A model generated the notes under the pieces. That model was not told the DNA's origin and ran no database searches. It saw nothing but the letters and a program-made list of their open reading frames with translations. Both the position numbers and the translations under genes were made by a program. 64,000 nucleotides of DNA from assembly GCF_042453785.1 (NCBI RefSeq), contig NC_091673.1:10015501-10079500 (forward strand), written 5' to 3'. Of this stretch, positions 3,543 to 47,900 are shown piece after piece (the first letter of the stretch is position 1; every line of letters starts with the position of its first letter). The stretch comes from Malus domestica (taxonomy: Eukaryota > Streptophyta > Magnoliopsida > Rosales > Rosaceae).

Positions 3543-3914
3543 TGTTGATGCACAAAACTGGAAGGTCTTGGAACAACGTAAATCCGACCGTGAATCTGCA
3601 AGAAAGTAAAGAACACAAGATGTATCGTGGTTCACCCCAATGTTTGGGCTACATCCACACTGATGTTGATTGTATTTCTCTGTAATTGTATGTATGGATT
3701 ACAAGTGTGAGGGGGAGTCCCCCAGAGAAATAGTGTTGTTATGTTTGTGAGGGTTTTGCCCTCTGTTGGGTTCACAGAGTTCGATTTGTAAGGGGAGCCC
3801 ATTGCTATAGAATAAGGGGCTCATCCTTTTACATAATTATGGGCTGGGTAATGAGGCCCAAATGTTGAGGCCCAATGTATCAAGGTCTGAGGCCCAATAT
3901 GTGTGGTACCAACA
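3543..3914 (-). repeat. 5' LTR of element I
   Basis: It is about 372 bp, ends in TGTTG/CAACA, and the primer binding site follows directly on the minus strand at 3523-3542. It carries a stretch matching the inner LTR block of element II (the sequence around the phrase ATTGGGGTGAACCACGATAC). It is longer than its partner at 33-323. Confidence 0.85.
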
Positions 3915-5307
3915 ATGTTAAAAATGCTTTTCCACATGGTGATTTAGAGGAAGAGGTGTACATGGAGATTCCACCAGGTTATGGCTCTGCGAACTCCAAT
4001 GGGAAAATGTGTAGACTTCGGAAGGCACTGTATGATCTTAAACAGTCACCCAGAATGTGGTTTGGGCGATTCACCCAGGCAATGAAGAAGTATGGGTATC
4101 GACAGGGAAACGCAGACCATACGTTGTTCATCAAACGTAAGGATGGCAAGGTAACTCTGTTTATCATATATGTAAATGATATGATTGTCACATGTGATGA
4201 TACGATGGAAATTGAACGTCAGCAAGGGCATTTGTCTTCTGAGTTTGAGATGAAAGATCTTGGAGGACTTAAATATTTTTTGGGAATTGAAGTGGCTAGG
4301 TCTCAGGAAAGAATATACTTATCTCAAAGAAAGTATGTATTGGATCTTTTGTTTGAAACTGGTATGTTAGGGTGTAAACCAGTGGATACACCTATTGTGC
4401 AGAATCATCATCTAGCAATTTATCAGGATCAAGTCCTAGTGAATAAAGAAAGGTATCAAAGATTGGTAAGGCGGTTGATTTACTTGTCGCGTACAAGGCC
4501 AGAGATTGCTTATGTAGTAAGTGTGGTGAGTCAATTTATGCATGCTCTTAGTGAAGATCATATGGCAGCAGTAATGCAGATTTTGAGTTACTTAAAAGGA
4601 GTTCCAGGAAAAAGGTTAATGTATAGAAAGCATGGGCATATGAAGGTGAAAGGGTATGCCGATGCAGATTGGGCTGGAAATATTATTGATCAGCGATCTA
4701 CATCAGGATCATTCACATTTATAGCTGGTAATCTTGTGACTTAGAGAAGTAAGAAGCAAAATGTGGTGGCAAGGTCTTCAGCCGAGGCTGAGTACAGAGG
4801 AATGATACAGTATTTGTGAGCTTCTATGGCTTCGGATTCTAGTCACTAAGATAGGGTTTAAACCAAAAGGTTCTATGTTCTTGTACTGTGATAATCAAGC
4901 AGCACGGGAGATAGCTAACAATCTGATGCAGCATGATAGGACCAAGCATGTTGAGGTGGATAGACATTTTATCAAAGAAAAGTTTGATGTTAAGTTGGTT
5001 GACATTTCGTTTGTGAAGACAGAAGAACAATTGGCAGATATCCTAACTCATGCAGTTTCTGCAAGAAGATTTCAAGACTCACTCGACGAGTTGGGTTTAG
5101 GTGATATCTATGTACCAACTTGAGGGGAAGTGTTGGCGTGAGTCCAAATTAGATTAGGAATATAATTTTGTTTCCTAGTTTGGTTATAATTCTTTTAATA
5201 TTACTTGTATTACAAGTTGTATCTTATATTTAGCCTCCTCGAAGAAGAAGAATAACATAACACAATTCAAACCCTAAACACTTTTATTTACCTGTTGAGT
5301 TGTTCAT

Positions 5308-28050: not shown

Positions 28051-31000
28051 GTTTTTTTTTTTTTTGTTTTTTGAAAGCAGGGGAACAACAAGGCAAAGAA
28101 GCCAAAGAACAAGAAAGCCTACAGAGAGGCAAACACAAAGCAGGAAACCAAGTAGTGAACGGGGATACAACAGAGACACCGCCACCTAGTGGAGACGTCA
28201 CCCCAAACACCACCAAAAAGAAATCAATGAGGACACGGGAGCCCATCATTGTTCAAAACAAAGACCAACGAAGATGGGGGCCGCTCGACCCTAACAGAAT
28301 CACTCATCTCCGTAAAACCAACTGACGCTAGCTCATGCGCTGCACCATTAGCTGATCTAGGTACCCAAGACCAGCGACAGAACTGGAAGGCCTCCCCAAG
28401 CTGTTTGACCCGAGCCAACACAGGGAAAGACTCCCAACTGCCCATCTCTAAAAAACCAGAGAGACAATTAACAGCATCAAGAGAATCAGATTCAATAATC
28501 AGAGCATTGATACCCAAAGCTACACCCAATTCACAACCACGAAGCAAAGCTAAAGCCTCAACTGCAGCAGCCGAGGGAGCAGAAAAAGGGTACCTTGCAG
28601 CAGCAACAAACCTCCCTTCCGTAGCCTGCATAACCACCCCAGCGAAACCCAACTTTGAAACCTTTGACCAACTAGCATCAATATTTATCTTGATGAAAGG
28701 AAAGGTAGGAGCACACCAACGCGAAACATGCCCCACCCTACCAGATCCCTCCAACCTGGACGCTCCCAAAATATCTTTCGAAGCCAAGAAAGAGCCCACA
28801 ACCGTAGATAAAGCAAACAACACTTTAGAAGGATTAATGGGCACCTTATTATACACAAAGTCACAGCGCGTCTTCCAAATAAACCAACAGGTATAAGCAA
28901 TATAAGACCGCATCCACTTAGCATGGGTAGAGGACGCAAAGGAAGAAGACCACACATCCTTTAACCAATCCACCCAAGAGTGAATAGCATCACGATCAAT
29001 TTTGTAGTTCAGGGCACCTCCAAACCAAATAGGCTCAACCCACGAACAATTAAGAAAAAGATGCCCAATAGTCTCATCATGGCAAAGACAAATATGACAG
29101 ATAAAGGAAATAGAGGACCTTCTGCGAAAAAGGGCCGCACAAGTAGAAAGGCAATTATGCAAAGTGAGCCATAGAAAATGGCGCAATTTCGGGGGCACCT
29201 CAAGCTTCTAGATAAGGAACCCCACGAGCAGTAGAAAGCCGATTATCCCTCAGAGCAAGCGATCTACTTTGAATCCACCGGTAACCCGACTTGACTGTGT
29301 AAATACCATTCTTACTACATCCCAAAATAATCCGGTCCTTGTGACTCAAATCACCAATTGGAGTGTCCTTAATAGCCTTTTTATCCGTATCCGAGAGGAA
29401 AGGTAGCAGGAAATTAAGATCCCACCTCCTAGAAACCGGACAAATAAGCGAGCTCACACGCAAACTAGAGGTAACCGGAACCGACCCAAAAGGCAGAGAA
29501 TGACCTAAAGACAGAGACGGTAACCACTTATCCACCCACACCCGCACATCCTGACCTCCCAAAATTTGCCAATGAGAACCAAGTTTAAGCAAATCCCTTC
29601 CCGTGAGAATACTAGACCAGGCCCAAGAAGCACGACCACCTTTCGTTGCTTCCCAAATATTGCAATGAGGGAAATAACGAGCCTTAATTACACGAGCCTA
29701 TAACGAATTAGGGTCTGAAACCAAGCGCCAACATTGTTTAGCTAACAAAGCAGCATTAAACTCTTGGAAATTCCGAAAGCCCAATCCACCTAAGTCTTTT
29801 GGAAGACCCAAAACATCCTTGGAAACCCAATGCATTTTGCGAGCTCCATCCTTGTTACCCCACCAAAAATCAGCCACCAAAGAATCAAGCTCCTGACAAA
29901 CAATGGCAGGGAATGTAAAAATACTTATAAGGTAAGCAGGAATAACCTGAACAACAACCTTAATCAACACCTCTTTTCGGACTCGGGACAAAGAACTTTG
30001 TTTCCACCCTTGCATTTTCTCTAGAATTCGCCCCTTCACATAAGAATGGCCTCGCTTCTTGGACCTTCCCCAAATAGCAGGAACCCCCAGATAGGTCCTA
30101 GGATTACAAACCACAGCCATACCAAGAATACTCCCCAGGTGGGCGGAAAGCGAAGCCGGAACATTTGCCCCAAAGAAAACGCTAGATTTCAATAAGTTGA
30201 CATTTTACCCCGAGGCTTCACAATATGTAGCAAGAAGATCGCTCAGATGCCGACAGTTATTCTCATCTGCTCGCAAGAAAATTAAAGTATCATCAGCAAA
30301 GAAAAGATGGGATATAACCGGTCTCGAGAAACCCATCCGCACACCAACCAGCCGCCCTTGATCCACCTCACCCTGAATCATTCAGGAGAGAACCTCCCCA
30401 ACCAATATGAATAAATAGGGAGAAAGAGGATCCCCCTAACGGAGACCCCTGGAGGGAGCAAATATAGTCCCATGTTGCCCATTTAGAATAACATTAAACT
30501 GAACCGAATTAACACAGCCCATGATAAGCTTTCTCCACATCAGACAGAACCCCATCTTTTCCATAACCGCCTCCAGAAAATCCCATTCAACCCTATCATA
30601 AGCCTTCTGCATATCAAGTTTAATGCCCAACTCAAATTTATTCTTTGCTTTCCTCTCTTTCAAAAAATGAAAGATTTCATGAGTTATACCAATACTATCC
30701 TGAATTTGTCTACCCGCCACAAAAGCATTCTAAGAAGGAGAAATAATGGTCTGCAGTAACACTCTCAGTCTATTGGCGAGAACTTTTGACAGAATTTTGT
30801 AAGAATAGTTGCATAAACTGAAAGGCCTAAATTGCGAAACAGATTCAGGATTTGCAACCTTTTGGGATAAGAACAATATGAGTATCATTCAGAGTACCTG
30901 AGATGGTAGAGTCCTGAATCAAAGCTTTAACCAAAGCTAAAACATCCGTTCTGACAGTCTCCCAAAAAGACTGGTAAAACACCCCTTGGAATCCGTCCAG

Positions 31001-34000
31001 GCCAGGAGTCTTCAAGCACCCCATTTCCAGGGCTGCCTCCTTAATTTTGTCATCTGAAACCAACGCAACCAAAACCATATTCATAGCATCAGAAACCACA
31101 TGAGAGATACAGTCCAATGAGGAGCCCCAGTTCCGAGACCCAGCCGAGCTGAAAATGTCAACAAAATAGTTCTCCACCAAGTGACGAACCTGATCAGGAC
31201 GCTCCACCCAACACTCACCCTTATCCTTAAGCTTCACAATGGTGTTCCTACGACGCCGATGCAAAGTTGAATGATGAAAAAACTTAGTATTAGCATCCCC
31301 ATCTCGCAACCATTTGACCCTAGAGCGTTGACACCAAAAACTTTCTTCCTGCGCCCTTAGATCATCAATGAATTGAGATTTCTCCCTTATCACATCTTGG
31401 TTTGAACCCCAATCCCTCTGGAGATCATCTAATTGAGCAAGGAGATCTTGAATTTGAAGGCCCCGCCTCTTAAACTTGGTACTGCTCCAGCGACACAAAC
31501 TAGACCGGCAAGCAGTTAATTTTCTCCCCTAATTCAACAAAACATCACCGTGTTGCTTGTGTTCCTAACAGGTACAAACCAAATTCTGACACTCTTCCTC
31601 CTTAGCCCAAAAAGCCTCAAACCTAAAAAGCTTCATTCCTTTCAAACCATCCAAATCAGACTTAATTATGAGAGGGCAATGATCAGAAGCCAAAACCGTG
31701 CCATGCGTAAAAGTGGAGTTAGGCCAAAGGTCCTGCCATAAATCATTAACAAGGACCCTATCAAGCCGTTCCTCCACCCAATCCCCATATCTCAATCCTC
31801 GCCAAGTAAAAGCCAGCTCATTGAAGCCCAAATCAAACAAATTCAAAAAATTCATGAAATCCTCCAAATACCTGGGCCTATTATACAATACCTCAACCCC
31901 TCCAGCCTTTTCATAAGCCCAAATGTACTCATTAAAATCCCCACCACATATCTAAGGAATCTCCAAATGAATAAAGTGATTTATCATCCAACCCCAAAAC
32001 ATTTGTTTTTCATTTCTATAAGGAGTCTCATACACCCTAGTGACACGAACCCATCTATTATCCCCTTTAATGCGCTGAACATCATCAATAATATTATGTG
32101 AAGAAAAAACAATTTGAACCACCAATGTGTCATCCCACCACAAGCTTAGGCCTCCAGCCCTACCAACAGGCGAGACGTTAAAATCGTTCAGAAAACCCAA
32201 TCGCCTCTTCACCCCATCAATTCTATGATCTTTCATCTTAGTTTCAAATAAAAATATCATAGAGGGTCTCTTATTACGAATAAGCCCATGTAGAGCCCTA
32301 ACTGCCATGTCCGACCCTAGACCACGGCAGTTCCAAAAAATATAACTCATAGCTGACTTGCGGCTGTTGAGGGTCATCCGCCGCCACCCCGAGCCATCTT
32401 GCCCGCCTTGTTTACCAAACTCTGATCTTGGTCAGTTTCTGAGACATCTTCCAATAATTCCCTCCTGTCACGAGCTTCACATGGGACTTCCCAACTCTCT
32501 TCCTCCGCAAGAAAAGCCCGTTCCACCACTAAACAAGTTTCCTTAAAACTCATGCTCCTCCATAAGTCAGCCACTCTACCTTTACCAATCTCCTCTATAC
32601 CAAACCCCTGAACTTTTTTAGCGGAGAAGTAGATAGCTCCAAGCTTTGCATTTCCATTCCTCTTTAAGTACCCCATTCAGCTACTCCACCCAAAGTGAAG
32701 AAATCCTCAGTAATTGCTATAAGAGAACCCGACTGCCAACCACCCGCATGTTGACTTCCTGAAAAACTAGAATGTGAGCAGCCTTCCTCAACCGCCGTTA
32801 TAGACGGACGGTCCCCATCAGCCTCATTCCCTGGAACCTGGTCAGTTGAAACCAAAGATCGTGGCTTTCGGCGCCACTTCTTTTTACTGCTGCCCTGGTG
32901 AGCAGAACCCACCCTAGGTGCAATAGCCCGAGTTACATCCCCCCTTGGTGAAGTCAAGACTCTTCCTCCCCGTTGGTTCTGAGACTGAGGAAGGCCAGAG
33001 CCCCTTACCTCACCAGCCTGCCGTCGCTCACCCATCCCCACATTTAACATTCTCAAAGGCTCCATAACATCCCTAACTGGATGAGCCTTTGTCCACTCCC
33101 CATACGTAGCTACCCCTTTCACCAGGAGCCTGAAAATTGCATTCTGTATTACCATGCCCAATGAGTCCACATCGGTAACAGAAATCTAGGAGCTGTTCAT
33201 ACCAAAAATCCACCCAAGTATCACGGTTCTGGTCCATCCGAATCCAACAACCATTACATAACGGCTTACCCGTATCAATTAGGAGTCTAACTCGCAAGAA
33301 CCCACGAGCTTTACCTGGATCCTCTAAAACTATAAATTGTTCAGCCTCTTGAGTAAGACGTTGAATATTAGCTGAAGAAATCAAGCCCAGTGGAACGCCA
33401 CGAATCTGAACCTAGAAGGGAATAGTCTTCATCTCAACTTCCTCCAAGGCTAGCTCCGGGGGCCATTTCTTGACAGATAACACCTTCTTCATCACTGCCC
33501 ATGGTACCTGTTCAAGAATTTTGGAGGCCATACTTTCATCTTGGACCGAAATAAGAAACGTATTATCCCTTACCTATTTGATGTCAACCTCTCCCAAATC
33601 TTTCCAAGCTGATCTGAGAATATTCCTTAACTCCCCATTTGTTCAACAGTTTACTCGTAAGAACTTTCCCAATCAATTTGACTCATTGCTCCATAGACGA
33701 TAAGTCCAGCGCCTGATCCAAATTGACCACAAGCTCCTCCACTCCACTGTTCTCCATTAGAGAATAACACAGATTGACAAGTTGCCAAACCAGAACTACA
33801 GAGTACACCAGACTCGCTGCATTAACCCTCAGTATAATTCCCCAGAATAATCTGATAAACGTTTGAAGCCATGACCCACTACACCCTAATAGATAAGGCA
33901 AAATGAACAATCCCATAAATGCATTCACTATCATATACTTGAACGGGGTAGGTGAAATACGCATTGGAGATACACCTGTCGCCGAGATCCCAAATGGCCA

Positions 34001-36647: not shown

Positions 36648-37958
36648 ATGGCAGATGGTCATGAGACTGATAAGAACATTGAAATTTGGAAGATTAAGAA
36701 ACTGATCAAGGCACTTGAAGCTGCAAGGGGTAATGGAACCAGCATGATTTCTCTCATCATGCCTCCCCGGGATCAGATTTCTCGTGTTACTAAGATGCTT
36801 GGTGATGAATTTGGAACTGCATCAAACATTAAGAGCAGGGTGAATCGACAGTCTGTTCTTGGGGCTATTACATCCGCTCAGCAGAGGCTCAAGCTTTACA
36901 ACAAAGTTCCTCCGAATGGGCTTGTGCTGTACACAGGGACCATTGTTACTGACGATGGGAAGGAAAAAAAGGTCACCATTGATTTTGAGCCTTTCAGGCC
37001 AATCAACGCATCTCTTTACCTCTGTGACAACAAGTTTCATATTGAAGCTCTGAATGAACTCTTAGAATCTGATGACAAGTTTGGTTTCATTGTCATGGAC
37101 GGAAATGGGACACTTTTTGGGACACTAAGCGGAAACACTAGGGAGGTGCTTCATAAATTTAGTGTCGACCTTCCAAAGAAGCACGGAAGAGGAGGGCAGT
37201 CAGCTCTACGTTTTGCTCGTCTGCGAATGGAGAAGCGCCACAACTATGTTAGAAAGACAGCAGAGCTTGCCACACAGTTTTTTATTAATCCTGCCACCAG
37301 TCAGCCCAATGTTTCAGGATTAATACTGGCTGGATCAGCTGACTTCAAAACCGAGCTTAGTCAGTCAGATATGTTTGATCCTCGTCTGCAGGCCAAAATA
37401 CTGAACGTGGTGGATGTTTCTTATGGAGGAGAGAACGGTTTCAACCAGGCTATTGAGCTGTCAGCAGAGATCCTGTCCAATGTGAAATTCATTCAGGAGA
37501 AGAAGTTGATTGGAAAATACTTTGAGGAGATTAGCCAGGATACAGGAAAGTATGTTTTTGGTGTTGAGGACACACTAAAAGCCCTAGAGATGGGTGCTGT
37601 CGAGATTCTTATTGTGTGGGAAAGTCTGGACATCAATCGGTATGTGCTGAAAAATACGACTACTGGTGAGATTATAGTGAAGCATTTCAACAAGGAGCAG
37701 GAGAACAATCAGAGCAACTTCCGGGATGCTAACAATGCGGAGCTAGAGGTTCAGGACAAGACGTCACTGCTGGAGTGGTTTGCTAATGAGTACAGGCGGT
37801 TTGGTTGTAGTCTTGAGTTTGTCACCAACAAGTCGCAGGAGGGGTCACAGTTCTGCCGTGGTTTTGGTGGCATTGGAGGAATTCTTCGCTACCAGCTTGA
37901 TATGAGGTCGTTTGATGAGTTTTCTGACGATGGAGAAGTTTATGATGATTCTGAATAG
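36648..37958 (+). CDS. ERF1: Eukaryotic peptide chain release factor subunit 1 (eRF1)
   Basis: 436 residues, the full family length, in one exon as in other plant eRF1 genes. Domain 1 has the stop-codon-reading motifs TASNIKS (NIKS at 60-63) and YLCDNKF (124-130). Domain 2 has GGQ at 182-184 within [20 protein letters not shown], which triggers peptidyl-tRNA hydrolysis. Domain 3, from about 275, binds eRF3, and the acidic tail ends [10 protein letters not shown]. It acts in the cytosol with eRF3 to end translation at all three stops. The start is the first ATG after the leader intron and matches the plant N-terminus [14 protein letters not shown]. It ends in TAG followed by CAATCA, a known leaky context, and the 3' UTR holds an intron. 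It is therefore probably autoregulated by readthrough and NMD. Confidence 0.97.
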
Positions 37959-37964
37959 CAATCA
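37956..37964 (+). promoter_or_regulatory. Leaky stop context TAG CAA TCA at the eRF1 stop
   Basis: The nine bases match the plant and tobamovirus readthrough consensus UAG-CAR-YYA. The next in-frame codons stay open through the 3' UTR. Confidence 0.85.
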
Positions 37965-38392
37965 ATCAACTCTTCCCCAAAACTGGTGCCGCAAGGTGGG
38001 GTGCAAAATGCCTGCACCAGTGCGCTCGGAGTTGTGGTTTCTGCTACTGCTGCTCCTGAGGTATTCTCAGAAACATTCTCAGGCTTGATTGAGGTATCCA
38101 ATTCTTCTCGCTTTAATATTTATAATATCATTCTCTTTAACAACGATCGGTCCCTTTATCATGTTTTTATTTCTTGAAGGACATTACATTGTTATCTGAT
38201 CTCAAAAACCTTGATCTGGTGATTTCATCTGGATCGCAGAAGAGGCAAGGAAAACCGATCATCTGGAACGAGGACACAATGCCGAGAGCTGCTGCTCCCT
38301 GTGGATCAAGACCTTCCGAACATATGCACCCGTGCATCAAGAACCCCTTTATGATGCTGGAATGTGGTCCTTGGGGTAGTGCTTTCGGTTAA
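37959..38392 (+). other. eRF1 3' UTR with an intron and an open in-frame extension
   Basis: A GT-AG intron is seen at 38094-38179 (GAG|GTATCC ... TTGAAG|GACATT, 86 nt). The junction is 135 nt after the stop, beyond the usual 50-55 nt limit for NMD. From the stop the frame runs 45 codons to the junction, and after splicing it continues a further 70 codons to TAA at 38390-38392. Readthrough would add about 116 residues in all. Unspliced, the frame stays open into the intron only. Confidence 0.75.
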
Positions 38393-38449: not shown

Positions 38450-40050
38450 TCCTAGCGTCGTCGCGGCGGCTCGTCTTTGAGATGAAGCCGGGCTGAATAA
38501 TCTATGTTTGAACTAGTAGTTATCTTTCTCTTATGTGCGTGTGATGACTCCGAAGAAGTAAATCTATGCTTCTTCTGGCTTAATATCCTCCTTATTTGGT
38601 GCTTTTGAATCCATTTGGTGCTCGACGTGCGATATGTGGATTTGTCGTTAAATTCGTAGATCTGGCAAAGAACGGCACAATGTTGCAAGATCAATGAACG
38701 TGATTCGTTGCTCTGTTTACCGGTCTACTATCAAGTTCTAGTTTTCTTATATGAAAATGGTTTTCTTCTATCCTCCCTTTTAAGCTGCTTTTTTGACCTC
38801 CTAATTAAAAATGCCAACTAAAATTGAAACAAAGTTCTTTTATGAAACATTATATGAAGAATCTGGGATTTTTAGCAAAAAATGGTTCTTGATATATAAT
38901 AGCATTTCACTTAGGTTCGCGACAATGAAAATTTGATAGAAATGGTCTTTTGTTTATTATAAATTATTTTGATCATTCATAGAACTAAATATGTCCATAC
39001 TCTCGATAAGTTGAGGTATTGATTTGACAAGAATCTTTTAAAACGGTGCTCAGGTAGTCATTCCCTTTTCGCAACAACTTAGCAAGAATATTTATAATTT
39101 TTATAAGGAAAGATCAAGATGATTTACTCAGGGACTACGTCTATCAATTTTAACATCAAAGATCAAAATAATTGACTATTTTAACTAAATAGTCAAGAAT
39201 TTTAAAACAATGGCACAACTCTTCGAAAATTGATGTAAACAAGTTCATGCCTAACTAGTACTCATTTTGAAAACATGTGATATGATTAGAATATAGGGAA
39301 AAGATCTTTGCACTCATTTTTGGTTCTCATGCACGTTTATTTGTTTCTAAGGCACATGAGAATTAATTGAAAAATAAATATGACGTGTGATTTCTTTTTT
39401 CTTTTTGAAATTCACAATGGGATATGCCTTTTGCACTCGTAAAAAATCACTTTACACTAATGAGTGTAAAAACTTGAGAAGAAAAAAATGCATGATAACA
39501 TTTTTGGATTCAAAATGATACAGGCCATTTCTCTCATCTTATAAGCTTTTTTGTATTATTTGACATCAAATTAAATAAGTTAAAAAAAAGCAAAGCATAT
39601 GATTAAATATAGAAGTGCGGGACCAAATAAAAGACGTGATTATCATTTTTTTATTTTTAAAAGATGGATAATTTGTGGTAAATTACGATTATCGACCATT
39701 TTGCTAAGAAGTACTCACAGAGTCATTTCAGCCTTCCATTGACCACAAGTTTAACTTCCACACTAGCATCGGATTTCGAACCTGAGACTTCCAGTTTTTA
39801 GTTTTAAAGAAGCCTTATAAGCCACCATTTACCACTGGACCACCAGTTCGTGATTGATGATCATTCTTTTTAAAAGATGAGTAATAATTATCTTTCAAAA
39901 AATACATTAAACTAGAACAAAAGAGAAAGGCCGAATACGGCCCAACAACAAAAAATAACCCAAAACATCCAACAGAGCGAAGCACGGCCCACAAAAGCTG
40001 GCCCTCCCGTGCCGAGGTTGCAGGTGACAATTAGGTCTAGCAATCGAGTC
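38450..40050. other. Intergenic between eRF1 and the START gene, part 1
   Basis: AT-rich DNA with no gene recognised, apart from the SINE-like stretch at 39667-39865. Confidence 0.4.
39667..39865 (-). mobile_element. Possible tRNA-derived SINE
   Basis: On the minus strand there is an A-box-like GGTGGTCCAGTGGT and a B-box GGTTCGAAATCC about 60 bp downstream. The phrase TTTTTAAAAGATG lies on both sides (about 39654-39666 and 39868-39880) and may be the target duplication. Confidence 0.45.
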
Positions 40051-41938: not shown

Positions 41939-44900
41939 TTACCATTTATCCTTGGATAAATGGTCAGATGAGTGGGTTTCCGTTTCCCTCTGGCATATCT
42001 CATCTGCAGTAACTTGTGAACTGGGAAGTTCTACTGTGGATGGTGAAACCTTTGTGGTTACATTTACCATGACTGCACAACTGGAAGTAGACCCGTTTGC
42101 CCTTGCGACGCTGTACATCTGCACTCCTGCATGCAATCTCTTGACCATGGCCCACATTCTTGCCCTAACACCTATCTTCACAATCTCCCTTGGAAGCCCT
42201 ATATCTTCATGGTGAAACAAAAGCACTTCTGATGCCATTTGCTGCTCTTCTGCATTCCTACCGTTCACTGCTAGGTAGTTGTTTGGTATCTGTCAAAAGC
42301 ACTTCTTCCACCAGCGGAGAAACTATGAACAAAACTGTACCAAAACTTATACACGTACCTGAGCTTATACGCCAACTGGAATAGTAATTATCTACCCTTA
42401 TTGCTGTTTTAGACGTTGGTAAGGATGGATATGGTGTCCCCTGATATATCAGAAAATAAACAGAAAGATGGCAGTCTATTGGAATTCATGCATCTCACAG
42501 AAGGAAACATCTTGGATTTCACCGGGCGTACGTGTATACGTGAATAACACATGATGAGTGAGACATCACTGATGATAACGCAGAATATATTTTGACAAAG
42601 AACTAATAGATGGAAATTTTTAGGAGTTACGATGTACTAGCTTCGTGTCTGGTATCAGTAAACATATACGAGTGTTATAACATGATGCGGGGTAAGGACG
42701 GTACCTTTGTTGTACAATAATATCCAGACGGAGATTCCCAAATACGACGGACTATAACGTATTCTCTATCACTGCAGAGGAGGGGCAACTGTGGATGTTA
42801 CAGAAAAGAATGTTCAATTGAGATTATGTTAAGTTTTCTTAGAAATCTGATATATATGTGAATTGGATTTTAGAGGAAGCTGAAAAGACAGAGAGAGTGA
42901 GAGACAAAGTTTTCACAACTGCAACTCTACAACACAACAGAGAGCAACATTTCATTCATATTCATTCCTTCCTTTTACATCAGCCATCATAACCGTTCAA
43001 TTACATGAGCCAATGTGATTTTGACACATGGCAGAACAGAGCATATGAGCCATTGAAAAGATACCTGATCTAAGATCATAAACTTGGCATATGAGCACAA
43101 GTTATCACAACATAAAACAGCTACTCAATAGAACAAAGATAAAATAGATAAGTAAATCATTTACTAACTTGAAATTAGTAAGCAATTTACTTTTCAACAC
43201 TCCCTTCTAAATTGTTAACTGATTTCACACCCAGTAAACTTCTCAAGTTGTTGAATCTGTCTTTGGGAAGAGCCTTGGTAAAGATGTCTGCAATTTGCTC
43301 TTCACTCTTGCAGTAAATCAGATCAATGGTACCTTCTTGAATTGCATCTCGAATAAAGTGAAACTTCCTGCCAATGTGCTTGGTTCTTTGATGAAACACA
43401 GGATTCTTGGACATAGCTATAGCTGAAGTGTTATCACAGAATAGTGATGTTGCTGCAGCTTGCTCTTCTCCAAAGTCCTTGAGCACAAACCTAAGCCAAA
43501 TGGCCTGAGATGTTGCTTCAGCTGCACTAACATACTCTGCTTCTGCAGTTGAAAGAGCTACACTGTGCTGCTTGACTGAAGCCCATGAGAATGCCCCACT
43601 TCCAAATGAAAAAGCATACCCTGAGGTGCTTTTCATATCCTCCTCAGATCCACTCCAGTCACTATCGCAATATCCAATCAGCAAGACAGATTTTCCATTC
43701 AAATATTCAATTCCAAAGTCAATTGTTCCTTGAATGTACCTTAGGACTCGTTTAGCAGCTCCATAATGTTTCTTGGTAGGCTTGTGCATAAATCGTGCAA
43801 GTACACTAGCAGAGAACATAATATCTGGTCTAGTTGCTGTTAAATACAGAAGACTTCCAACTATTTTCCTATATTCACACTCATCTGCATGTTCACTTCC
43901 ATCTTCTCTTCTCAATTTATCAGTTGCAACCAATGGAGTGCTCACTGGTTTGCAATCTTTGAGCCCAAATTTATCCAAAAGTGTTAGAGCATATTTTTTC
44001 TGATGTATAAATATACTCCCTTCAGTTTGAGTTACCCCCATTCCAAGGAAGTGATGAAGTAAACCCAAATCTGACATCTCATATTTGCACATCATTTCAG
44101 CTTTGAATTCTTCCACCATTTCTGCATTGCTCCCTATGTACACAATGTCATCAACATAGATTGACACGATCAAGATGCCAACACCTTCCTTGCTTCTCAC
44201 ATATAAAGTTGCTTCACTTGAGCTTTTGTGAAATCCACAGTGAATTAAATATGTATCAATTTCACTGTACCAGGCCCTTGGTGCCTGTTTTAGACCATAG
44301 AGAGCCTTTCTCAGTCTATAAACCTTGTCTTCTGCCCCTTTAATCACAAAACCATCAGGTTGATCAACATATACCTCCTCCTCAAGAACACCATTCAGGA
44401 AGGCTAATTTAACATCTAATTGCCACAGTTTCCAACCTTTCTGTGCAGCTAGTGCAATGAGTGTTCTAATAGTATCTAACCTTGCCACTGGAGCAAAGGT
44501 TTCATTAAAATCAATCCCTGGTTTCTGTGTGTAACCTTTGGCTACAAGTCTTGCCTTGTGTTTTTGAATGGAGCCATCAAGATTCAACTTTGTTTTGTAT
44601 ATCCACTTCACACCCACAACAGGTTTACTACTAGGTCTATCAACTAATTCCCATGTGGAATTCTTTTCAATCATCAATATTTCTTCTGTCATAGCCTTTT
44701 TCCAAGCATCATCTTTGACTGCCTCACTGAAATCTTCAGGTTCAATGATGCTCATGTTGCATTGAGCATATACTTCACTCAAACTCTTCCATTTCTGTGG
44801 AGTATGATCATAACTTTCAGAGATTGGAACTGGAGAATCAAGTGAACCAGGTTCTTGAGATGCTTGCAGGTCTCCAGTTGATTGTGATCTCAGAGGAGAC

Positions 44901-47900
44901 TGCATTGACTGAGGTGAATCACTTGAATCTGGATCACACTCAGATATCCTTGGACTTATTTCATCATTCCAAGGACTAGGAACTTGAACTGATTCATTTG
45001 TTTCCCAGTTCCATATTACTTTCTCATCGAAGATTACACTTCTTGATAGTTCAATCTTTTGAGTTCTCAAGTTGAAGATTCTATATCCTTTTTCACAGTT
45101 TCCATATCCAACAAATACTCCCTTCTCACCAGTTTGCTCCAGTTTGTGTCTTTTCTGTGAAGGAATGTGTATATAACACATGGAACCAAATATCTTCAAA
45201 TGTTTGACACCCGGCTTCCTCCCACTAAATGCCTCAAATGGAGTTATGTTGTTCAGAGCACTTGTTGGACATCGGTTTTGCAGATACACAGCTGTGTTGA
45301 CAGCTTCAGCCCAAAACTTAAAGGGAATCTTCTTTTCAATCATCATAGTTCTTGCCATTTCAATTATTGTCCTATTCTTTCTCTCTGCAACACCATTTTG
45401 TTGCGGAGAGTAGGCAACAGTCAATTGCCTTTCTAATCCCATATCTTCACAGAACTTTGAAAACTCTAGAGAGGTATATTCTCCACCCCTATCACTTCTG
45501 AGTTTCTTGATTTGATAACCACTCTGCAGCTCAACCATGGATTTAAACCTTTTGAAAATGTTGAAGACTTGAGACTTGTGTTGCAAGAAAAATATCCAAC
45601 ACATCCTAGTGTGGTCATCAATAAATGTGAGAAAGAATTTGTTGCCTCCTAGAGTAGTTATCTGCATTGGGCCGCATATATCAGAATGAATAAGTTCTAG
45701 AGGTTGTGATGCCCTCCAAACTTTTCCCTTGTCAAATGATTCCCTGTGACCCTTCCTTGTAGCACATCCAGAGCAAACATGCTCAGAGACTTGTAGTCTA
45801 GGTAGGCCCTGCACCATTTCCTTCTCTTGTAGAAGCATCAAACTAGAGTAGTTTAGATGTCCATATCTTCTATGCCACAACTGAGCTGATTCTTCAACAG
45901 TTGCTCTATTAGCCATATGAGGATTAACATATTCCAAACTTAATGGAAAGCATCTGTTTCTTTTCATGGGAACACTTGCAATTAGATCTTCCATCTGCCT
46001 ATCTCCATAAATATCAACCATGTAATCACCAAACACAAGCCAATATCCATGTTCTACCATCTGCCCTACACTCAATAAGTTTTCATCCAAACCAGGTACA
46101 ATCATAACTTCTTTAATATACCTAGTCACACCTTTCATCTCAATCACCAATGTGTCTTTGCCTATTGACTGCACTAAATCTCCAGTGCCCACTTTAACTC
46201 TACACCTCACATTCTTATCAACATCAATGAGCAAGGATTCATGAGAGGTCATATGATTGCTACATGCACTATCTACATACCATATATTCATACTTCTTCC
46301 AATAGTAGCAGAATGGCAGGCATAAAACATGGTTGCAGATTCTGTTACCTGATTCGCATAGTTTACAAGTTTTCCAGACTTGTTTGGTTGATCACAATCC
46401 TTGATGAAATGACCGAAACGATTGCATCCATGACATTTCGGCTTCCCTTTAAACCAGCACTCACCATAGTGCAGTTTATCACAATGCTTGCATTTTCCCT
46501 TAGACTGATCAGATTTTCCTCCTTGATCATATTTGCCACCTCGATTAGCAAGATTCTGAGGTTTAGGATCCCATTTCTTTCCCTTTGATTTCCAATCCTT
46601 CTTTGGTTTAGAATTACCAAACGAGAGATTTGGTTAGGTTCCTTTCGAATTCAGATTCAGAGTACTGAAAGCTCTTTCAATGGTACTTTCAGCATGCCTA
46701 TCAAGGCGTTGTGCAAACCCTCTCAAAGCTGCAATCACCTCTTGTACCTCTATAGTTTCAATATCCTTAGTTTGTTCAATTACATAACAAACAGGATCAA
46801 ATTCCTTAGTTAAGCTTATGAGTAATTTCTGAACTAATCGTTCTCTGGGTAAATCTTCCCCATAACCCTTCATCTGATTTACCAACTCGAGAAGACGAGT
46901 GAGATACACAGACAGAGTTTCATCATCCCTCATCCTTGTGTACTCGAAATCACGGCGTAGACCCTGCAACTTGATGGATCTCACTTGCTTATCACCATGA
47001 AATTCCTGATGTAGTATGTCCCAAGCACCCTTTGAGGTTTCTTCGTTTGAGATTCTGGGAAAGATGTCATCCGAGACAGCTCCTTGGATTATACCCAGTG
47101 CCTTAGCATCCTTCATTAGCTTGTCGCTCAGAGAAACTCTCTCCGACTCCGATGAGCCTTCATCTCCAATCTTCTTATCCTTCGATTCTGAAATTTCAAA
47201 CCCCTTTTCAACTAAATCCCAGATTCCATGTGATTTGAAAATAATTCTCATTCGGATCTTCCAAAATTCATAGTTGTCACCATTGAATATTGGAGCCCGA
47301 AGATCACTACCACCAGATCCAGCCATTTGAGACTTGAATCGACAAACTGAGTCGGAAATTTCACGTTGGATTTCCGAGCACAGCACTCACAGATCTTACG
47401 CCCCGATTCCAGATAGAACCTGAGCTCTAGATACCATGTTAAGTTTTCTTAGAAATCTGATATATATGTGAATTGGATTTTAGAGGAAGCTGAAAAGACA
47501 GAGAGAGTGAGAGACAAAGTTTTCACAACTGCAACTCTACAACACAACAGAGAGCAACATTTCATTCATATTCATTCCTTCCTTTTACATCAGCCATCAT
47601 AACCGTTCAATTACATGAGCCAATGTGATTTTGACACATGGCAGAACAGAGCATATGAGCCATTGAAAAGATACCTGATCTAAGATCATAAACTTGGCAT
47701 ATGAGCACAAGTTATCACAACATAAAACAGCTACTCAATAGAACAAAGATAAAATAGATAAGTAAATCATTTACTAACTTGAAATTAGTAAGCAATTTAC
47801 TTTTCAACAGATTATAGTTAGGAAGGAAAAGACACAAACAAATAATTGTAGCAGCTGTAAGAAACCATATATGTTACCTTTCTTATCCAGTGAACAGTCA

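Follow-up and report, generated by a model that had tools for sequence, protein, structure and literature searches.

The eRF1 gene and the sequence beyond its stop codon

The window (the whole 64,000-nucleotide stretch of Malus domestica DNA that was analysed, C13:10015501-10079500) contains an eRF1 gene on the forward strand, with an intronless coding sequence of 436 codons ending in TAG (36648..37958). Its assignment was based on the open reading frame, on Pfam analysis, in which eRF1_1, eRF1_2 and eRF1_3 all scored above the curated cut-off, and on matches to solved eRF1 chains, the best of which was a chain of 8ip8 named eukaryotic release factor 1 (E 1.2e-266). The stop codon is followed by CAA TCA (37956..37964, + strand), which an earlier sequence-only reading of this DNA had recognised as UAG-CAR-YYA and which fits the readthrough context stop-CARYYA in the available text of PMC11062462 and PMC6755094. 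No readthrough-stimulating RNA fold stood out after the window stop (z -1.38).

Beyond the TAG, the eRF1 frame continues through 45 codons of an extension (exon A, 37959..38093, + strand), with homologous sequence in the eRF1 genes on two other contigs, C16 and C7, up to a predicted GT-AG intron in the 3'-UTR (38094..38179, + strand; GT at 38094-38095, AG at 38178-38179). This predicted intron is 86 nt in size with a G+C content of 29%, compared with 45% in the eRF1 coding sequence, and is consistent with the joined exons of related proteins discussed below. Exon A places 135 nt between the TAG and the intron, more than the approximately 50 nt of the plant eRF1 circuit, as judged by sequence. 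Exon B (38180..38392, + strand) was delimited by translation and protein relatives and adds 70 codons and a TAA at 38390-38392, giving a spliced extension of 115 sense codons. Intron and spliced frame had both been put forward in the sequence-only reading, with 116 residues because the residue read at the TAG was added; sequence and translation agree with it on both counts, the splice site itself being a prediction. A retained intron would close the frame at a TGA (38175-38177).

A predicted alternative acceptor AG is located at 38238..38239 (+ strand), based on the joins in two related proteins (P0004 and P0006) and on coordinates and frame. Its use would remove a further 60 nt (20 codons) with the frame kept, leaving 95 codons to the same TAA. 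An AATAAT found by motif scan (38496..38501, + strand), approximately 104 nt beyond the second stop, may represent a poly(A) signal. When the window extension was dinucleotide-shuffled 20,000 times, the spliced frame remained open in 113 cases, and 140 of 9,094 window stretches of the same length were open. Neither extension exon matched a Pfam family at E values up to 1.

Full-length eRF1 genes with open extensions

Searching the 651-Mb assembly (19 contigs) with the eRF1 protein yielded at least 16 matches, of which 13 were partial or broken and three were full length without internal stops: the gene in the window (C13) and genes on C16 (98% identical) and C7 (80% identical). The predicted spliced extension was open in all three, for 115 (C13), 116 (C16) and 117 (C7) codons. 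The C16 gene has the same stop context as the window gene, TAG CAA TCA, and a predicted intron of 82 nt; both retain CAATCA, and the 31 nt after the stop are identical between the two. The longest identical run, 50 nt, was not significant (P 0.146). Just past the extension, the 3'-UTR of the C16 gene contains a CGTGT-type short tandem repeat that is missing from the window copy.

The C7 paralogue (C7:2814315-2815634, - strand, identified by the genome search within C7:2809500-2816500) is organised differently. Its stop context, TAG GAA TTA, does not conform to CARYYA, and the putative sensor is therefore not uniform across the three genes. Two 3'-UTR introns of 82 and 86 nt are predicted, which place the junctions at 132 and 276 nt beyond the stop. 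The order A-B-A'-B of the extension corresponds to a tandem in-frame duplication of the exon A-intron-exon B cassette. A Cys/Pro-rich end like that of the window extension is missing from the C7 extension, as it is from the Prunus proteins P0009 and P0010.

In the databases, parts of this downstream frame have been annotated as proteins in their own right (P0008, P0009, P0010 and P0012, from Rubus, Prunus and Malus), as would be expected if the frame were a separate small gene with its own ATG. Yet P0012, a Malus entry, is the C7 extension itself, continuing the C7 eRF1 frame immediately after its stop, and the window codon that matches the start of P0003 is not ATG (VPQGG compared with MQQGG). 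Frame continuity with eRF1 would then be a coincidence, and we regard a separate gene as extremely improbable.

Probable splicing of the extension in related proteins

A search of exon B against 5.8 billion proteins identified four relatives. A profile search with the extension, in which the best 7,992 candidates were scored, gave 11 including those four; both searches depend on shared five-residue words. All named matches among these candidates were from Rubus, Prunus or Malus. The relatives are a biased sample because they were found through their open frame. A search of viral contigs found none with the relatives' DNA, and the corresponding search of prokaryote contigs returned only one archaeal factor, which was set aside.

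Four of the relatives bear on the predicted splice sites. In the predicted proteins P0003 (775 bp contig) and P0005 (1742 bp), LIE is joined to DIT precisely at the predicted junction; in P0004 (599 bp) and P0006 (1202 bp), LIE is joined in frame to KRQGK, which corresponds to the window AG at 38238-38239. The two acceptors are separated by 20 codons in the window, by 22 in P0003 and by 19 in P0005. Because of their length and the missing intron, we take these four contigs to be transcripts. The doubled cassette order of C7 was also present in P0009 (Prunus) and in P0011, and Prunus P0010 was without the A' part. In P0007 and P0011 the extension open reading frame runs straight across the intron or introns, the unspliced frame being open there.

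P0014, from Malus domestica, matches the window eRF1 without a difference across its first 419 residues, and where the extension aligns the identity is 99%. Together with P0016 and P0017 it represents gene models that excise 37907-38020 (114 nt, in frame) and thereby the stop codon, giving a fusion of 514 residues, so that alternative splicing rather than readthrough could produce an extended eRF1. Four fused Malus models were present among 337 candidates; C13 has the GT and AG of the 114-nt splice in frame, and C16 contains this stretch as well. The composition of this stretch (44-46% G+C, compared with 29-31% for the 3'-UTR intron) and its start within the eRF1 coding sequence argue against an intron, and the remaining fused model, P0015, takes an intron of 54 nt instead. 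Moreover, P0003-P0006 keep VQNACT or QKACT just before the supposed acceptor, and these contigs therefore do not use the 114-nt splice. Gene predictors bridge stop codons where the downstream sequence looks coding. The fused models are most likely an annotation device, and removal of the stop by splicing is a very unlikely explanation.

Selection on the extension peptide

Readthrough might serve to make a longer eRF1, the extension being a functional C-terminal domain that confers a job or location of its own. The frame open in three genes and the annotated relatives in Rubus, Prunus and Malus speak for this, as do the motif ACTSA, common to all eight aligned extension sequences, and a dN/dS of 0.49 between paralogues. 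That value was obtained for C13 or C16 compared with C7 over 84 codons, some of which lie beyond the TGA of C7 itself, and purifying selection on the peptide looked significant by bootstrap (0.31-0.84 and 0.28-0.83). The controls, however, led us to reject it as proof: the values in frame +2 were 0.50 and 0.47, and a figure as low as 0.49 was reached by 86 and 77 of 1000 column shuffles (8-9%), compared with 0 of 1000 for the coding sequence. Because off-frame and shuffled sequences match it, the figure of 0.49 was discounted as evidence of peptide constraint.

Between C13 and C16, dN/dS was 0.05 for the coding sequence and 0.72 for the extension (107 codons, bootstrap 0.36-1.74). The first 330 nt of the extension contained 23 nonsynonymous changes where 21.6 were expected under neutrality, and 8 synonymous changes where 8.1 were expected. 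Divergence at the DNA level was 0.080 and 0.120 in the extension, below the values for the intron (0.210), for the upstream 1.2 kb (0.209) and for synonymous sites of the coding sequence (0.236), and the 3'-UTR beyond the second stop was also slow (0.142). Between C13 and C7, identity was 71-73% in exon A and 74% in the first intron; the exon is therefore no more conserved than the intron in this comparison. On these sequence comparisons, the rate of amino acid change in the extension cannot be told from that of controls without constraint, so peptide selection is neither shown nor excluded.

Other observations also count against a functional domain. The Cys/Pro end is not shared by C7 and the two Prunus proteins named above, neither exon has a Pfam family, and the structure predicted for the P0003 extension from an alignment of eight sequences was of low confidence throughout (mean pLDDT 44.5). 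In Arabidopsis, the interval past the eRF1-1 stop is described as being without ribosome footprints in the available part of a ribosome-profiling study (PMC9293766). Taken with the controls, these points leave the suggestion of the sequence-only reading that a C-terminally extended eRF1 could accumulate unsupported, and a tail with a function of its own is, in our estimate, improbable.

Retention of the open frame

In each gene, both alternative forward frames of the spliced extension are interrupted by stops (three and five in C13, five and five in C16, two and seven in C7). In simulations of the divergence between C13 and C16, the frame survived with a frequency of 0.0003 at neutral rates and 0.016 with both rates halved; a C7-like cassette survived in 0 of 20,000 simulations, and at a frequency of 0.00055 with the indel rate halved. 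When substitutions only were simulated, the C13-C16 frame stayed open in 27%, or 14-32%, of trials and the C7-like frame in approximately 5%. The low joint survival figures thus rest mainly on the indel term, for which the rate was taken from a single upstream stretch of 1.2 kb, in models that are simple and were chosen after the data had been seen. Retention of the open frame would thus be unlikely under simple neutral models, mostly through indels.

Counted by eye in nucleotide alignments and setting aside the A/A' difference within C7, three of four indels in the extension were multiples of three, compared with three of 23 in the upstream 1.2 kb (hypergeometric P 0.025). The only frame-shifting indel in the extension, of 5 nt, lies close to the end of the C16 extension.

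These results bear on a further possibility, that the 3'-UTR intron and NMD matter and that the open frame is the leftover of an older, longer eRF1, with readthrough having no role here. In its favour, the C7 frame is open without a CARYYA context, codon-level changes in the extension look nearly neutral and substitutions alone would spare the C13-C16 frame fairly often. It is countered by the retention of CAATCA and of the 31 identical nt in C13 and C16, tempered by the non-significant 50-nt run, and by the low modelled probability of neutral survival once indels are included. We consider a leftover frame unlikely. Since proof of peptide conservation is lacking and neutral retention of the frame appears unlikely, selection for an open path is favoured over a functional tail; the tail probably acts as a road for ribosomes and not as a working part of the protein.

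A putative readthrough/NMD circuit and its relation to known systems

Nyiko and colleagues reportedly described in 2017 (Nucleic Acids Res 45:4174) that plant eRF1-1 is autoregulated through readthrough and NMD. In the available text of PMC6755094, the plant circuit comprises a CARYYA element, an intron lying more than 50 nt past the stop and, close to the poly(A) signal, a second stop (TC2); according to the same source Arabidopsis eRF1-1 mRNA increases in upf1-1 and with cycloheximide. The balance shifts towards NMD when eRF1 is abundant and towards readthrough when it is low, rescue of the mRNA by readthrough being only partial (available parts of PMC11062462 and PMC6755094). According to a review (PMC11062462, as far as available), readthrough was measured in Arabidopsis and was reduced by excess eRF1; the Arabidopsis-wide readthrough set in that portion of the review was enriched for UGA and A/U neighbours, not for CARYYA, a point against the circuit proposed below. 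In Aethionema, the eRF1 intron is located 124 bp past the stop (PMC8641386, available part). The sequence-only reading was right in citing a plant report of eRF1 control by readthrough versus NMD, going by the accessible text of these sources.

The window gene has the same kind of parts: an eRF1 gene, a CARYYA-type stop, a distant downstream intron and a second in-frame stop near a possible poly(A) signal. On the basis of this likeness to the published portions of the Arabidopsis eRF1-1 circuit, we propose that the window eRF1 is likely autoregulated by an equivalent mechanism, with selection acting mainly to keep the road open and little on the peptide (probability roughly 0.7). With eRF1 plentiful, ribosomes would stop at the TAG, the downstream exon junction complex would stay in place and NMD would destroy the mRNA. 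With eRF1 scarce, some ribosomes would insert an amino acid at the TAG, move on over the junction and strip the complex, ending at the TAA at 38390, and the mRNA would be spared. Selection would then mainly keep the path past the stop open and do little for the peptide it encodes. The self-measuring circuit suggested by the sequence-only reading is therefore likely right as regards gene, stop context, junction and second stop, by analogy with Arabidopsis; the possible accumulation of an extended eRF1 is the part that found no support.

A readthrough/NMD circuit of eRF1 is already known in plants; the present analysis contributes the predicted extensions of three full-length genes, the duplicated cassette of C7 and the second in-frame acceptor seen, like the predicted junction, in relatives. 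The circuit parts are thereby seen outside Arabidopsis, in an apple-type genome in which the extension is open in three eRF1 genes and the leaky hexamer is present in two of these. Differences from the plant eRF1-1 circuit, as far as its accessible description goes, are the near-identical C16 copy accompanied by the C7 paralogue, the in-frame alternative acceptor, and, in C7, the duplicated cassette with its pair of predicted introns, along with a stop context that does not fit CARYYA. A literature search that was only partly specific to Malus returned no title on this apple eRF1 gene.

The in-frame duplicated cassette of C7 would add a second junction. More tentatively, the extension in Rosaceae may be purely an open road, with the C7 sensor rebuilt through the duplicated cassette and the alternative acceptor (60 nt in the window, 57-66 in relatives) tuning the same step, a broader scheme that we consider possible and rather doubtful. 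If the extension does serve only as a road, comparative screens for conserved post-stop peptides would miss such cases, and the C7 cassette would amount to a natural experiment in dose, two junctions compared with one. The locus also separates two ideas that are commonly merged, namely that a readthrough frame is kept for survival of the mRNA or for the peptide.

Bacterial release factor 2 (prfB) is autoregulated by frameshifting at an internal stop, which yields the working protein. As in the window gene, the release factor's own gene would measure the factor through an inefficient stop; in contrast, the window stop is at the normal end of the gene and the stability of the mRNA would be what is read out. 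Readthrough into an open frame is also known for peroxisomal LDH (PMC4359377) and the vitamin D receptor (PMC5868278), where, in the portions of these papers available, the extended protein is reported to differ in its properties, whereas the window tail is without demonstrated peptide conservation.

Degenerate copies and flanking sequences

Among the broken eRF1 copies, the fragments on C5 and C6 had no match to the extension at E 0.01 or better. The degenerate copy on C10 (positions 1700-2000 of the examined locus) has TAG GAA TTA, like C7, and keeps the start of the extension; its frame closes in a TGA after 32 codons, where the likeness to the extension ends, which counts in favour of the explanation proposed above. 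Two fragments near C16:3.08 Mb have approximately 50% identity to eRF1 and no stops. In the window, the eRF1 gene is flanked on both sides by long open reading frames at 43187-46330 (- strand), 28224-31498 (- strand) and 3875-4744 (+ strand) that resemble retroelement polyproteins or reverse transcriptases, as judged by eye only.
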